Part shown: one piece after another, positions 7,186 to 63,370 of the stretch
Position numbering within the stretch: the first letter of the stretch is position 1
Layout of the letters: every line of letters starts with the position of its first letter
NCBI GenBank assembly: GCA_902768825.1
Contig: CACXMR010000009.1
Span: 41,702 to 105,701 of the forward strand
Length of the DNA stretch: 64,000 bases
Reading direction: 5' to 3'
Source of the DNA: an uncultured Ruminococcus sp.
Lineage (GTDB): Bacteria > Bacillota > Clostridia > Oscillospirales > Acutalibacteraceae
The notes under the pieces: generated by a model
Told to the model about the DNA's origin: nothing
The model's input: the letters and a program-made list of their open reading frames with translations, nothing else
Databases searched by the model: none
Program-made: the position numbers and the translations under genes

Positions 7186-7260
7186 TGGAGGCGTCACCCG
7201 GATTCGAACCGGGGAATCGGAGTTTTGCAGACTCGTGCCTTACCACTTGGCTATGACGCC
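7186..7260 (-). tRNA. tRNA-Cys (GCA)
   Basis: A full cloverleaf reads on the minus strand from 7260. Acceptor GGCGTCA pairs with TGACGCC, the anticodon loop CTGCAAA gives anticodon GCA, and the T loop is TTCGAAT. The discriminator T and an encoded CCA (7188-7186) follow. All arms are intact. Confidence 0.95.
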
Positions 7261-37829: not shown

Positions 37830-38078
37830 CGTAGTCAAACGCCCTGACGAAGAGAGTAGTTACAGGATCGCCTACAGAGAGCGCCCCAAGGCTGAGAGGG
37901 GTGCGGAAGAAATGTAATGAAGTTCACTTCTGAGCGGTGCGGCTGAAATGACAGGTGTCAGTGTAGGCCGTGACGGTTGGTGTCGTTATTCACTGGTGAG
38001 AGTCCGCTCAGGCGGAAATCAGGGTGGTACCACGGAAATAATTCGTCCCTGCGTGTTTTGCGCAGGGGCTTTTATTTT
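37830..38078 (+). promoter_or_regulatory. T-box riboswitch (phenylalanine) controlling pheST
   Basis: Contains the T-box core AGGGTGGTACCACGG (38021-38035) followed by AAATAATTCGTCCCTG, the antiterminator. The competing terminator CCCTGCG/CGCAGGG (38047-38053 with 38061-38067) ends in CTTTTATTTTT. Upstream lies a long stem I with the AGAGAG-type bulge. The triplet TTC followed by A at about 37923-37925 is the likely specifier and matches tRNA-Phe. Uncharged tRNA-Phe would allow read-through into pheS. Confidence 0.92.
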
Positions 38079-59198: not shown

Positions 59199-59882
59199 TT
59201 AACGAGTTGAGGTGCTGCCTACACCGGTTTCTATCTTTACGGTCCCCTGTTTTTTACCGCTCAGATCCGGAGTGTGGACATTTCCGATGCCTGTCTTGAT
59301 ATACATATTGTTGTCAGATGCCGGCACGTTGACGCTGCCGATACCTGTTTTGATATCCAGATCCTTGATCTTTGCTTCCTTGGAGATATCCACGTCTCCA
59401 ATTCCTGTCTCCACATAGAGCTTTGAAATGAAGGGATCACCCTCCATATCAATGTTGCCAAGGCCTGTTTTCAGATTGACAATACTATACTCTCCTCCGG
59501 TGAGGTGCAGCACAACCTCATGTGCGGAAAAACCGTTGCGAATAGCTCTGTCAATGGAAATATTCCTGTTGTCATCCTTGACGGTAACATAAAGGGTGCC
59601 CTCGCTCACATGAATGTCATAGTCATATTCATCTGAGTAATAGACCTCAACAGTGCTCTCCTTATTGTCAGCGGAATAATCCAGCTTGACGCCGTCAACA
59701 GCTGTTACTACCACAACGCTGCTGTATGGTTCATCAACACCAACGACCCTGAGCTGACGGTTATCGCTGAAAAGATTCTCCATGCTCCAGCCCGTTGACG
59801 ACAGTGAAACTGCAGCAAGACCTGCACCGACTACAACCAATGAGAGGGACAGGATCAATCCTACCTTTGTTTTTGTTTTCAT
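59199..59882 (-). CDS. DUF4097-type beta-helix membrane-anchored protein
   Basis: A 227-residue protein with one N-terminal membrane segment (VGLILSLSLVVVGAGLAAVS, about 7-26). The rest is an exported repetitive beta structure: KTGLGNIDMEG, ETGIGDVDISKE, KTGIGSVNVP, KTGIGNVHTP and ETGVGSTSTR, each about 19-20 residues apart. This is the DUF4097 pattern, thought to be a surface beta-helix. It follows a DUF1700 gene by 21 bases on the same strand; in many Firmicutes the two occur with a PadR regulator, which is not present here. Confidence 0.85.
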   Translation of the reverse strand: MKTKTKVGLILSLSLVVVGAGLAAVSLSSTGWSMENLFSDNRQLRVVGVDEPYSSVVVVTAVDGVKLDYSADNKESTVEVYYSDEYDYDIHVSEGTLYVTVKDDNRNISIDRAIRNGFSAHEVVLHLTGGEYSIVNLKTGLGNIDMEGDPFISKLYVETGIGDVDISKEAKIKDLDIKTGIGSVNVPASDNNMYIKTGIGNVHTPDLSGKKQGTVKIETGVGSTSTR

Positions 59883-59903
59883 TAATAATTCCCTCCCAAG
59901 CGC

Positions 59904-60584
59904 TTACCTGATAAGTCTGTAATGACCTGTTACAAGCTTTATTAGTCTGTTAAGACCCATCATCATAAGAATTGACAAGCCAAGCAGTATCATACCTCCG
60001 CCGATGAAAAGCAGACCTCTCATGGCAGCACCTGCAAACAGCGGGAAAAAGCCTACTAAGGTCGCAGCGGCGCCTGCAATGAACACTCCCACGGCAGCGA
60101 TGTACATACCGATAAGGGCCGGCAAAAACAAAATGCAGGCCACGATTATCAATATTATACGCTCAGTGCTGGCTCCCGGCACCATATACCTTCCCGGAGA
60201 GCGATTATCTCCGTTGGGTGCGTTCCTCACTGTACCGGAAACGGACTCATAGCTTCCGGGCCTCTGATAATTAGGAGGCTGATAGTATGAGTTATCCGAC
60301 GCACCAGAGGAAACACCTCTGTCAAAGCCGTCGCCATACCTGTCTGAGCCATAGGACCTGAAGCTGTCAAAATCCTCCTCGCTCTCCACTCTTGTGCGTA
60401 TCTTTGCAGCAAGAGCATCGGGAGTGCCAAGAGAAGCAACAGCCTGTTCTTCGTTCATGCCGTTTTCTACCATACTGTCAATAATATCCGAATAACCCTT
60501 CAGATACATATTCAGTTTCTTTTCGGGAATATCGGAAAGTCTCATTCTGATTTCCCGTTCAAATGACATCTTATCCAATTTCAT
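59904..60584 (-). CDS. DUF1700 family membrane protein
   Basis: The start is uncertain between ATG codons at 60587, 60584 and 60569; 60584 is used. The first 70 residues match DUF1700: MSFEREIRMRLSDIPEKKLN, then GYSDIIDSMVENGMNEEQAV and ASLGTPDALAAKIRT. A polar, Tyr/Ser/Gly-rich linker leads to three or four membrane segments from about residue 140 to the end. Cotranscribed with the DUF4097 gene. The family is linked to envelope stress regulation by association only. Confidence 0.82.
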   Translation of the reverse strand: MKLDKMSFEREIRMRLSDIPEKKLNMYLKGYSDIIDSMVENGMNEEQAVASLGTPDALAAKIRTRVESEEDFDSFRSYGSDRYGDGFDRGVSSGASDNSYYQPPNYQRPGSYESVSGTVRNAPNGDNRSPGRYMVPGASTERIILIIVACILFLPALIGMYIAAVGVFIAGAAATLVGFFPLFAGAAMRGLLFIGGGMILLGLSILMMMGLNRLIKLVTGHYRLIR

Positions 60585-60710
60585 CATTCCTTCTGTGACA
60601 AAATAAATTCCCACACCTAAAATATACATAATAAGTCAAAAATTGTCAAGTAGGAGAATGATCGGTAATATTTTGAAAAAATAAGCAAAACCCGACAATA
60701 AATTAATCAC

Positions 60711-60751
60711 AAACAAAAACAAAGGCCCCGGCAAACGCTGCCGAAGCCTTT
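60711..60751 (-). terminator. Intrinsic terminator at the 3' end of the large non-coding RNA
   Basis: On the minus strand AAAGGC, TT, CGGCA form a stem with TGCCG, GG, GCCTTT around a five-base loop. The stem is followed by GTTTTTGTTTG, a T-rich tail pointing away from the RNA candidate. Confidence 0.8.
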
Positions 60752-61650
60752 TAAAGTTCTTGAGAAAGAAACTGAAGTAAGCAATATTGAAAAGTTCAAA
60801 TTCTCATGGGACTCATTCCTAAACTCATACTTAAATATCCATTGGCTCGCAGAAACAAACCTTAAAAATCGGGATATTACATGGGACTCAGTCCTTATCT
60901 TGAATTTTATATAGAAAACTGCTTTCAGTTATGATCCTATCATAATACGAAACGCATACGGCAGAAGATCTAAACACCAACCCGCCTCGGATCAGAGACC
61001 CTTAATGCTCTGCTTACAAGATCGGCCGCAATACCGACCCGCAGTATACCAAACGATCATCAATATACTGTGAAGCTTTCGTATCACAACGGAGGAAAAT
61101 ACTAAGTTCAGCCTCTCAGACACCATTTCTCTACTTCAATAAGAGACGATCCCCGTGTGTCAACGGTTGCGGCACTGATATGACTCAGGGCCCTATATTA
61201 AATTGTGAGTTCTCAAAATGTCAGACACCCTGCTGCCTCGAGAGGATGTAAAAGCGGGTTGAGCAGCGTGACCGTCATCGTCGGGCTCTCCATACAACTC
61301 AGGGACCTGTCCGAACTCACAGCATAAACAGCTAAATATTGAAGCGGTGCGATATCAGAGCTCCAGCAAAGCGAAGATGAAAAGGCACATAGCTCGCAAA
61401 GCAAATCTGTTCTTAATCTGTCCCATCCTTGTTGAAGAGGTCACACCAACGGGTGCGACAAAAGTCTGACTAACCGGTTCTAATTCGCCCATCGGAGCTT
61501 GCCTCCCTTCGTGGATTTGATCAAAAAAAGAGCTAACCGTTTAATGCTGCATGGCACCCAAAGAAGCCTTTCAGCGTTTCGCAGAAGCACCACACAATCC
61601 GGTTTGTTGAGCTATACACTTGGTACTTTGCTTTGCTCTTTTTTTATCTT
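60715..61650 (-). ncRNA. Candidate large structured non-coding RNA, about 930 nucleotides
   Basis: No protein gene fits in this stretch on either strand, yet it has a consensus promoter at 61657-61684 and a terminator at its far end. Exact or near-exact helices nest in it: 61320-61313 with 61212-61205 (GTGAGTTC/GAACTCAC), 61272-61269 with 61223-61220, and 61267-61263 with 61236-61232. Local hairpins are GTCGCACC-CGTT-GGTGTGAC (61459-61440), CAGTATA/TATACTG (61042-61070) and TTATGAT/ATCATAA (60929-60945). GAGTCCCATG occurs twice near the 3' part. Size and ornateness recall the OLE, GOLLD and ROOL RNA classes, but I cannot match it to any of them from memory. It is not rRNA, tmRNA, RNase P RNA or a group II intron as far as can be read. 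Confidence 0.65.
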
Positions 61651-61656
61651 GATTAT

Positions 61657-61684
61657 ATTATACCACTAATTTGTATTTTGTCAA
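61657..61684 (-). promoter_or_regulatory. Consensus promoter of the large non-coding RNA
   Basis: TTGACA (61684-61679), 16 bases, TATAAT (61662-61657), both boxes perfect. It is preceded by an A/T tract of the UP-element kind (TTTTCAAAAAAGTTTAAAAA on the minus strand). It is one of the best promoters in the window, with a predicted start near 61650. Confidence 0.85.
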
Positions 61685-61741
61685 TAGTTTTTTTAAACTT
61701 TTTTGAAAATTTATATGGCAACTTGCTGGTAAGATTCCCTA

Positions 61742-61770
61742 TTGACTTATCCTGCTTTTTATCGTAGAAT
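61742..61770 (+). promoter_or_regulatory. Promoter of the DUF1292 gene
   Basis: TTGACT (61742-61747), 17 bases, TAGAAT (61765-61770), divergent from the large RNA promoter. Confidence 0.7.
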
Positions 61771-61777
61771 AGTATGC

Positions 61778-61950
61778 ATGGGGAACGCTGACGGGAATCA
61801 TTTTCCTGCTACGGTGTGAGCAGGTCATTATTCCGACACCCCTTGGGTGCTGTGATCAGTCGTTATCCTTTGACAACATCCGATTTACCGTGCCTGCGGG
61901 ACAATGACTCCTGCCTGATGCGGTGCGACTTTGACTTTTGATAAGGAGAT
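61778..61950 (+). other. Long, hairpin-rich leader of the DUF1292 gene
   Basis: About 180 bases of untranslated leader. It holds CCTGCT/AGCAGG (61805-61824), CACCC-CTT-GGGTG near 61837-61849 and further G/C-rich paired segments before the ribosome binding site. No known riboswitch core was recognised. Confidence 0.4.
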
Positions 61951-61956
61951 TTGAAA

Positions 61957-62286
61957 ATGAACAACAACATTGACAACGAGGATATCTTTGACGCTGACCT
62001 CATCTCTCTGACAGATGAAGAAGGCAATGAGTACGAATTTGAGGTTATCGACGAGATAGACTATAAGGACGGTCATTACTATGCCCTTCTCCCCCTCTTC
62101 GATGATCCCGAAAACGAGATCTATCAGGATGACACCTATATGATCTTTGAGGCTGTTGAGGACGAAAACGGCGAGCCCCAGCTTGCTGAGATCGAGGACG
62201 ACGATCTTCTCGATGAGCTTGCCGCTATCTTTGAGGAAAAGATGGCTCAGGACGAGGAAGCTGACGAGGAGGACGAGGAAGAGTGA
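61957..62286 (+). CDS. DUF1292 family acidic protein
   Basis: A 109-residue, very acidic cytosolic protein. The ATG at 61957 is eight bases after AAGGAG (a TTG two codons earlier is the alternative). The family core is ADLISLTDEEGNEYEFEVID, ALLPLFDDPENEIYQDDTYM and IFEAVEDENGEPQLAEIEDD. The C-terminus is almost all Glu and Asp (DEEADEEDEEE). DUF1292 proteins are widespread in Firmicutes, often near ireB and ruvX, and have no settled function. Confidence 0.9.
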   Translation: MNNNIDNEDIFDADLISLTDEEGNEYEFEVIDEIDYKDGHYYALLPLFDDPENEIYQDDTYMIFEAVEDENGEPQLAEIEDDDLLDELAAIFEEKMAQDEEADEEDEEE

Positions 62287-62369
62287 TCCCTGAGAGGATC
62301 ATTTTTCCCCGCTTCGGGACAAATCAGGAATGCTTTTTCATAAAAAAGAAAAATATCATAAATTACCTA

Positions 62370-62398
62370 TTGATTTTTTAAAGTAAATGTAATATAAT
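62370..62398 (+). promoter_or_regulatory. Promoter upstream of the 6S RNA candidate
   Basis: TTGATT (62370-62375), 17 bases, TATAAT (62393-62398). A second TATAAT at 62428-62433 without a -35 box lies just before the RNA's likely 5' end, so initiation at either or processing is possible. Confidence 0.7.
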
Positions 62399-62436
62399 AA
62401 TATCAAACAAAAGATAAATGTTTTGTTTATAATTTC

Positions 62437-62620
62437 TGCCCAATTCGTTGTATGTGTCTATTTAACCCTACACTTTTTAATCCGGGAGCTCGCCTCCCGC
62501 AGCGGACTTCAGACCTCCCGCCACGGCGGACGAAGGGAGTATGAAACTGTGGGGAGGGCACCCACCTGCTTAACTCGTAGGCAGGTTATTTAAGACACAG
62601 ACGGTTGGGCGGATTTTTTC
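62437..62620 (+). ncRNA. ssrS: Probable 6S RNA
   Basis: The 5' part GCCCAA...CGT...TGTGTCT (62438-62459) pairs with AGACACA...ACG...TTGGGC near 62592-62610, closing an RNA of about 180 bases. Next comes a large open bubble (ATTTAACCCTACACTTTTTA). The other side of the bubble has the small hairpin ACCTGC/GCAGGT. Apical arms are CGGGAG/CTCCCG and CCTCC/GGAGG with CCAC/GTGG. This closing-stem, bubble and apical-stem plan is that of 6S RNA, which mimics an open promoter and binds sigma-A polymerase. TTTTTT follows the closing stem. Identification rests on architecture only. Confidence 0.55.
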
Positions 62621-62657
62621 TTTTATTCTGAGTAAACCTAATACTACTTGATGATTG

Positions 62658-62685
62658 CGGCAGACCCTGGGTCTGTCGTTTTTTT
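62658..62685 (+). terminator. Second intrinsic terminator after the 6S RNA candidate
   Basis: CGGCAGACC (62658-62666) and GGTCTGTCG (62670-62678) form a 9-bp stem with a CTG loop, followed by seven T residues. Confidence 0.85.
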
Positions 62686-62770
62686 GCACTCCGACGCAGG
62701 AACGGCTCAGTCGGAAGCTGTAGGATATTCACAACTATTAAAAATATCTGCAAGGGTTACAATATTGTAG

Positions 62771-62799
62771 TTGAAAAATGCAAAATAACATCATATAAT
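62771..62799 (+). promoter_or_regulatory. Promoter of the DUF4358 gene
   Basis: TTGAAA (62771-62776), 17 bases, TATAAT (62794-62799), about 34 bases before the start at 62840. The remaining bases 62686-62770 show nothing else. Confidence 0.75.
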
Positions 62800-62839
62800 G
62801 TAAATGGTCTTAGTTTATGCCTGTATGAGAGGTGAATTT

Positions 62840-63370
62840 ATGAAAAAGGAGTCCGTCAAAAAAAATATAATACTTACGATTATCGTTCTTTCTATAATAT
62901 TGGTCACTACAATTATCACTGTTATGATACTTCTGGGGACGCAACGCAAGCCCGTCCAGAATAATGAGCTCAGACTCAGTGCTGATGATGTTGTCTCACG
63001 GGTAATCAAAAAAATGAATTACAACAACCTGACCCCCATTTCAAAGCAGAATATATCAAGATACTACGAGATTCCAAAGGACGCTGTGACTGACTATGCA
63101 ATGTACATTTCAGGTCGGTCGGGCTCAGAGGTGGAAATAGCCTGCTTCAAACTCAAGGATGAGGATTCCCGCCAGACGCTTACAAGCGCAATTAACGAAT
63201 ACCTTGTCGGCAAGACCTCCACCGACACCAGCGGAAGCTCTACACTGACATCCTCGGCGGTATCTGTGCATTACCCTTATGTGCTTGTGGTGGTCGCTCA
63301 GGACTGCGATACAGCCGTAAAGTCCTTTGAGACAATTATCAGCGACAGTCTGAAATCATCAACTCAATAA
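62840..63370 (+). CDS. DUF4358 membrane-anchored protein
   Basis: The ATG at 62840 follows GAGAGGTGAATTT; 176 residues. One N-terminal membrane segment (IILTIIVLSIILVTTIITVMIL, about 10-31, read in two parts) anchors an exported domain. That domain has the DUF4358 pattern: LSADDVVSRVIKKMNY, ISRYYEIPKDAVTDYAMYIS, SEVEIACFKLKDEDS and YPYVLVVVAQDCDTAVKSFE. Family function unknown, occurring widely in Clostridia. A terminator follows. Confidence 0.85.
   Translation: MKKESVKKNIILTIIVLSIILVTTIITVMILLGTQRKPVQNNELRLSADDVVSRVIKKMNYNNLTPISKQNISRYYEIPKDAVTDYAMYISGRSGSEVEIACFKLKDEDSRQTLTSAINEYLVGKTSTDTSGSSTLTSSAVSVHYPYVLVVVAQDCDTAVKSFETIISDSLKSSTQ

Follow-up and report, generated by a model that had tools for sequence, protein, structure and literature searches.

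What does a predicted bacterial transcript of nearly a kilobase do if it matches no catalogued RNA family and, at first sight, encodes nothing? We addressed this question for a minus-strand locus in a 64,000-nucleotide stretch of Ruminococcus DNA (the window, to which all positions refer unless another locus is named). The preliminary description of the locus reported a perfect TTGACA-N16-TATAAT promoter and an intrinsic terminator, and both were borne out. The sigma-A-type promoter (61684-61657, minus strand) matches the consensus at 12/12 positions, carries a TG before the -10 box, and is the sole 12-of-12 sigma-70 match in 59500-63000, a region in which 19 promoter-like sites were found vs 6.4 +/- 2.8 in shuffles. 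An AGTT..AAAAAC-like element at 61699-61685 abuts the -35 box on its upstream side, recurs as a loose pattern in 49/52 homologues, and is possibly a regulator site or an UP element. Setting the start from the -10 box and the end from the terminator, we predicted an RNA of about 0.94 kb (61650-60712, minus strand) that ends in a hairpin with a 14-pair stem (7 G-C) and a T-rich run (60752-60720, minus strand; the terminator scan placed stem and T run at 60751-60721). From the promoter we infer that this RNA is strongly transcribed and abundant.

A DNA search of 99 genomes returned matches in 56, all of them within the 61 genomes of the same genus (the source genome included), and no match in 38 genomes from other families of the order; in some of the 56, the matches span the promoter or the ORF1 block only. 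Absence from related strains, which the preliminary description had said would count against an RNA gene, is contradicted by this recovery in 56 of 61 genus genomes. Of the 64 loci fetched at the outset, the 5' alignment excluded nine (one duplicate, six promoter-only places, one fragment and one locus without a 5' end), and with two named loci added it came to 57 homologues; the full-length set comprises 52, as five ran into a contig end or had no visible terminator. Six places on relatives' other contigs (L057-L062) match the promoter region and not the RNA, and no Rfam family was found there. A pattern for the ORF1 start recovered 51 stretches in named genomes, 47 with the promoter upstream; the records bearing it are mostly metagenome assemblies, many from the rumen (uncultured Ruminococcus, Clostridiales, Clostridia and Ruminococcaceae UBA bins). 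Matches L076, L078, L084 and L113, from which the promoter is absent, were dropped as chance. The promoter is kept across the genus alignment, and a T-rich tract preceded by a hairpin lies 824-1062 nt past the TATAAT box in 44/57 homologues, with ends derived from the scan; eight further 3' ends were set by eye. Terminator-like sites showed no excess in the scan as a whole (4 vs 3.1 +/- 1.8 in shuffles).

The chromosomal setting is also kept. A divergent DUF1292 gene (61957-62286, plus strand; PF06949, E 5.4e-17) lies upstream in 37 of 43 loci for which 900 bases or more of upstream sequence were available, and beyond it is the gene for 6S RNA (62430-62619, plus strand; RF00013). Of 29 relatives fetched, 20 were scanned, and each of the 20 has 6S beside DUF1292. 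Past the terminator, the window has a same-strand gene pair (59199-60629, minus strand) with HAAS (just below cut-off) and DUF4097 domains, accompanied by an 11-of-12 promoter (60649-60621). That the HAAS gene follows the terminator on the same strand would suit a reading of the RNA as an attenuator or long 5' leader; yet this gene and the next were not found in 22/22 relatives with at least 3.5 kb past the ORF1 start, so that no conserved downstream gene was found (0/22 loci), and the terminator-like ends recur in homologues. We consider this reading, already disfavored, extremely unlikely. Because the synteny with DUF1292 is kept and the downstream genes are not, the RNA looks like a vertically inherited core locus without a fixed downstream gene.

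The preliminary description had linked the locus to the OLE, GOLLD and ROOL classes and called for a comparison with Rfam. Rfam 15 gave nothing within the predicted RNA at the gathering score and, at E up to 10, weak chance matches only, with no OLE, GOLLD or ROOL among them; the same library recovered the 6S RNA and a T-box leader (37835-38053, plus strand). In 20 relatives' loci 6S alone was recovered, and relaxing the threshold to E up to 3 in five relatives yielded 6S, a single RNase P and, for other families, weak chance matches. In relative L157, an RNase P RNA gene occupies 1168-1513 of its locus on the opposite strand, near the counterpart of the large RNA. Membership in ROOL, GOLLD, OLE or raiA was rejected, as the covariance models found no match in the window (E up to 10) or the relatives, and a diverged tmRNA, RNase P RNA or SRP RNA was rejected because each has an over-cut-off match elsewhere in the same genome (partial for SRP).

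The size, promoter and many conserved motifs would nonetheless suit an RNA-only ornate assembly of the ROOL/GOLLD kind, and PMC12286853 reports a ROOL from cow rumen DNA. In that same paper, ROOL and GOLLD are phage- or prophage-encoded and often near tRNAs, whereas the large RNA is a syntenic chromosomal locus and the only tRNA found in the 64-kb window lies at 7186-7260. The genus sequence had no match in phages or plasmids, nor did its exact pattern occur in viral contigs, and a phage or plasmid origin was rejected on these grounds. Together with the Rfam result, they make an assembly of this kind very unlikely, and the proposed link to OLE, GOLLD and ROOL is not supported.

We then asked which parts of the RNA are conserved. 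Alignment A1 took 48/52 homologues, and the homologues share the blocks CAAGATAA at the start, GACTGC (in many), GAAGGGAGGCAAGCTCC.ATGGGCGA, GACGATGACGGTC, ACAATTGAATA and GGCTGAAC, followed by copies of GGA.TGA.TCC.ATG ahead of the terminator. An AATT.AATA-like stretch, ACAATTTAATA in the window (61206-61196, minus strand), is found in 52/52 homologues (AATCGAATA in one). The preliminary description had proposed nested long-range helices, the outer of which (P1) pairs GTGAGTTC (61320-61313) with GAACTCAC (61212-61205); variants of P1 include GTAAG/CTTAC in many other species and GTAGTTTCCT/AGGAAATTAC in one. Inside it, P2 pairs GCCC (61286-61283) with GGGT (61230-61227) and the hairpin GACGATGACGGTC spans 61282-61270, all on the minus strand, the hairpin being drawn from the alignment and the covariation count.

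Covariation was quantified in alignment A2, which covers 15 pairs (P1, the inner helix and the hairpin) in 38/52 homologues. Of its cells, 90.9% pair, and 31 have both sides changed vs 9.2 +/- 4.7 in shuffles; sliding the helices out of register drops pairing to 27-55%. Both-sided changes occur in 3/4 pairs of P2, which were chosen by scanning A2 itself, while the P1 pairs were taken from the preliminary description. These figures flatter the structure: P1 was not found in several of the 14 homologues excluded from A2, and the alignment that served to choose the inner pairs also scored them. Across all 52 homologues, the longest helix at the place of P1 averages 7.3 pairs vs 5.8 in shuffles, and several homologues do not show P1; folded in full, the RNA shows no exceptional stability (z = -0.74, with 5/20 shuffles folding equally well). 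The named helix and the inner hairpin are thus present and covary in the 38 homologues taken, as the preliminary description had anticipated, whereas the outer helix is missing from some relatives. This covariation, with some pairs selected on the alignment that scores them, is what would be expected of a structured RNA. The broader picture of a large, promoted, terminated, conserved and partly structured locus is supported, and it lies outside Rfam.

The view that the locus has no coding capacity did not hold, as it overlooks two micro-ORFs and a 45-codon open reading frame, ORF1 (61492-61355, minus strand), with a hairpin inside it. ORF1 is preceded by GGAGGCAAGCTCC (61506-61494, minus strand), a putative ribosome-binding site in which the Shine-Dalgarno sequence lies inside a possible 4-bp hairpin. 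Its ATG stands behind a Shine-Dalgarno-like site in 52/52 full-length homologues, and its length is 24-26 codons in 39/52; in the window, as in the two relatives nearest to it, the frame is different and ORF1 runs to 45 codons. The RNA could accordingly be a dual-function transcript whose product is the ORF1 peptide, which in many relatives reads MG[ED].EPV....SWCEVF..EKT or near. The frame deviates in 8/52 loci, however, the window among them, and codons with a single difference were synonymous in 1903/6497 cases vs 1528 expected, an excess of only about 25%; the peptide is therefore not strongly kept and appears weakly constrained. A Pfam search (E up to 1) found nothing for it, and the corresponding peptides of other genera have little in common past the N-terminus. 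We regard a functional ORF1 product as decidedly unlikely. Open frames of at least 60 codons occur in many single loci, at scattered positions on both strands and with none seen in common, and an antisense gene, hinted at by CTCCTAT near the 3' end in one subgroup, was dropped for this reason.

The most telling feature of the locus, missed by the preliminary description, is an array of candidate ribosome-binding sites with minimal ORFs. The window carries two copies on the minus strand near the 3' end: copy 1 (60894-60877) reads GGACTGAGTCCC ATG TAA, a start directly followed by a stop, and copy 2 (60819-60796) reads GGAATGAGTCCC ATG AGA ATT TGA. The motif GGA-N-TGA-N-TCC-N-ATG, or a near variant, occurs in the 3' third at least once in 52/52 homologues and at least twice in 49/52; L035 and L041 have a second copy, aligned as GGAATGATACCAATG, that escapes this pattern. 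Copy number ranges from one to four, with at least three in seven homologues and four in one of these. Close relative L002 has four 3' copies, of which copies 2-4 lie at 834, 888 and 942 past the TATAAT box; this 54-nt spacing suggests tandem duplication. In the source genome, both matches to the motif (at most one mismatch) fall in the large RNA, and a reversed-pattern control gave one.

We evaluated how soon each frame opened by these ATGs closes. Copy 1 is ATG-stop in 49/52 homologues (48 TAA, one TGA), and a stop within 10 codons is found in 52/52 in frame vs 16 and 15 in the other frames and a maximum of 37 in shuffles. Conservation of ATGTAA through pairing with upstream sequence was rejected (longest helix 6.2 vs 6.0 in shuffles). 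The downstream sequences of copy 1 are closely related, forming 7 clusters at 60% identity and 1 at 50%, so that copy 1 weighs less and is weak alone. At copy 2, a stop within 10 codons follows in 49/49 in frame (median 3) vs 24 and 20 in the other frames, and shuffling the downstream sequence gave an early stop in a mean of 24 and a maximum of 35 of 49; as background, 46% of 825 other ATGs in the same RNAs reach a stop within 10 codons. Among the copy-2 stops, ten different distances and all of TAA, TAG and TGA are represented, and the sequences downstream form 31 clusters at 60% identity and only 5 at 50%. Because distances, stop codons and downstream sequences all vary, shared ancestry alone is unlikely to account for the copy-2 stops. 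With a Shine-Dalgarno-like site, a start and an in-frame stop within a few codons, the copies have the composition of putative minigenes.

Is the arrangement also found outside the genus? R1, a covariance model built on the 5' block, matched 2/394 genomes of the order, both from the same genus, and none outside it; we therefore used synteny plus the motif for distant relatives. Among other genera of the family, 108 genomes with DUF1292 were available, and the region upstream was read in 69, a few shortened by contig ends. An apparent diverged version of the RNA is found there, in several cases with a consensus promoter, GG..GAGTCCAATGG or similar, and later copies. The motif occurs in 23/69 regions and, by the same pattern, in none of the other 46; 41 copies were counted in 69 regions vs 0.45 expected from mononucleotide shuffles. 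A wider pattern gave at least one copy on one strand in 26/71 regions and at least two in 11. The first ATG copy opens an ORF of 18-30 codons at 17/22 sites, and the later ATG copies (11, in 8 loci) meet a stop within 4 codons in 10 vs 1 and 2 in the other frames, P being about 9e-6 against local background ATGs with copies treated as independent. These later frames are mostly ATG-NNN-stop, with NNN and the stop varying (ATG-GCA-TAG, ATG-CAA-TAA, ATG-TTC-TGA).

Eleven copies in other genera carry AAG in place of ATG and have an in-frame stop within 4 codons in 9/11 (3 and 4 in the other frames); these are perhaps remnants of ATG copies, or else starts of very low strength. Such GGGTGAGTCCAAAG-like copies with early in-frame stops are kept in L128, L130, L133, L156, L157 and L168. 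Across 25 order-level loci from other families, L215 alone shows the architecture: at the same place, it has a TTGACA-TATATT promoter, a 20-codon ORF1 and, read by eye, four micro-ORFs (ATG-TAC-AGG-TAA, ATG-AAA-TAG, ATG-AAA-TAA and ATG-ATT-TAA). In L213, also from another family, the ATG of a single motif opens 50 codons without an early stop. Judged by synteny plus motif, the RNA looks to have spread beyond the genus.

The stretch from Shine-Dalgarno to ATG can form either a hairpin of 2-4 bp (GGA/TCC, GGAG/CTCC) or an extended pairing with the 16S tail (AGGAGGTGA.TCC), both of which include the Shine-Dalgarno sequence. Duplex energies were scored with an assumed 16S tail, the genus's own 16S 3' end not having been found. 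On this basis, nine sites of other genera scored between -12.9 and -21.1 kcal/mol, with shuffle p values from 0 to 0.05; the ORF1 site of the window scored -18.3 kcal/mol (p 0.003), and pairing was weak at the window's two 3' copies (-10.3 kcal/mol, p 0.03, and -8.3 kcal/mol, p 0.25).

A motif that is repeated, variable in copy number and in some copies of other genera carries AAG for ATG could also be the site of an RNA-binding protein, with GGnTGAGTCCnATG serving in CsrB-like repeats as a protein sponge and the start-stop frames as by-products. This account gives the frame-specific stops no role, and CsrA was not found in any of the 61 genus genomes, on which ground a CsrB-type sponge was rejected; for a sponge in general, we consider the explanation quite unlikely.

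The early stops are specific to the frame and variable in distance and codon, and the simplest account is that ribosomes initiate at these sites and have to terminate soon, without a useful peptide being made. We therefore favor, tentatively and with rather less than full conviction, a structured, vertically inherited and strongly promoted RNA that would work by binding ribosomes at minimal ORFs and so lower or sense translation capacity. Initiation would take place at ORF1, which in most relatives has about 18-30 codons, and at the 3' sites, one to four in number, where ribosomes would stop at once or after 1-9 codons, giving initiation and termination without a protein. Most probably, initiating ribosomes (with initiator tRNA) would be retained or cycled on the RNA, which would thereby lower or sense free translation capacity much as its neighbor 6S RNA holds RNA polymerase. 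What the sequences themselves show is that promoter, terminator and helices are conserved and that early stops are in excess in one frame only; abundance, ribosome binding and a titrating or sensing role are inferred. Against the ribosome-catching reading stand the AAG copies with early stops, which plain AUG initiation leaves unexplained, the weak constraint on the ORF1 peptide, the weak 16S complementarity of the window's two 3' copies, the lack of any R1 match outside the genus, the 46 of 69 family regions in which no motif was found and, for action in trans, the minigenes of PMC8708949, which are reported to act in cis and not in trans.

The main rival is that bound ribosomes merely stabilize the RNA, shielding it from ribonucleases, and that function resides in its conserved folded domains. 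Structured domains are indeed kept between ORF1 and the 3' sites, and, according to PMC8708949, a minigene site may protect an mRNA through the ribosomes it binds; stability alone leaves unexplained why several sites are kept and early stops favored, and we hold it to be unlikely. A bolder version of the ribosome-binding reading, in which the RNA would be the first known class of dedicated ribosome decoy, a strongly promoted core component of a group of gut Clostridia that presents ribosomes with several binding sites, each leading into a start-stop or two-codon ORF, and tunes or reads free ribosomes as the 6S-adjacent translational counterpart, is possible but doubtful.

How does the locus compare with known systems? 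We know of no named RNA class that exerts global translation control through minimal ORFs offered to ribosomes, and no paper describing such an RNA was among the matches listed in the open-access literature. Sponges of the CsrB/RsmZ type bear repeated GGA-containing motifs in one RNA, as is seen here, but our RNA belongs to a genus without a CsrA match and has an ATG and a stop after the motif. ROOL, GOLLD, OLE and raiA/ModT resemble it in being structured RNAs, from bacteria and phages, that are large or abundant; unlike them, it has no covariance-model match and a different genomic setting.

Similar in composition are the bacterial two-codon minigenes of PMC8708949, which likewise consist of a Shine-Dalgarno sequence, ATG, one codon and a stop and can inhibit translation. 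In that paper, toxicity is reported to be highest for two-codon ORFs that combine a strong Shine-Dalgarno sequence with UAA, the cause being peptidyl-tRNA recycled too slowly. Those are single cis sites in mRNA leaders, whereas here one to four sites lie in a conserved, terminated and structured RNA of their own. The phage lambda bar minigenes are alike in the order of Shine-Dalgarno, ATG, codon and stop. The Staphylococcus aureus STAR repeats are reported in PMC13009471 to be repeated elements that recruit ribosomes, as we propose here; they comprise sORFs of variable length at genomic repeats, in contrast to one structured RNA locus with start-stops.

The locus is best read, we propose, as a new class of structured RNA capturing ribosomes at minimal ORFs. 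If so, minimal ORFs would be the means by which a dedicated bacterial RNA influences ribosomes, and selection could act on the starts and stops of a 'noncoding' transcript although no peptide is selected; pipelines for noncoding RNAs and for small proteins could both miss such transcripts. A parallel in role is 6S RNA, which binds RNA polymerase as a decoy of a core machine. Its target differs from the one proposed here and its gene is separate, but it would share with the large RNA the decoy role and is also its conserved neighbor.
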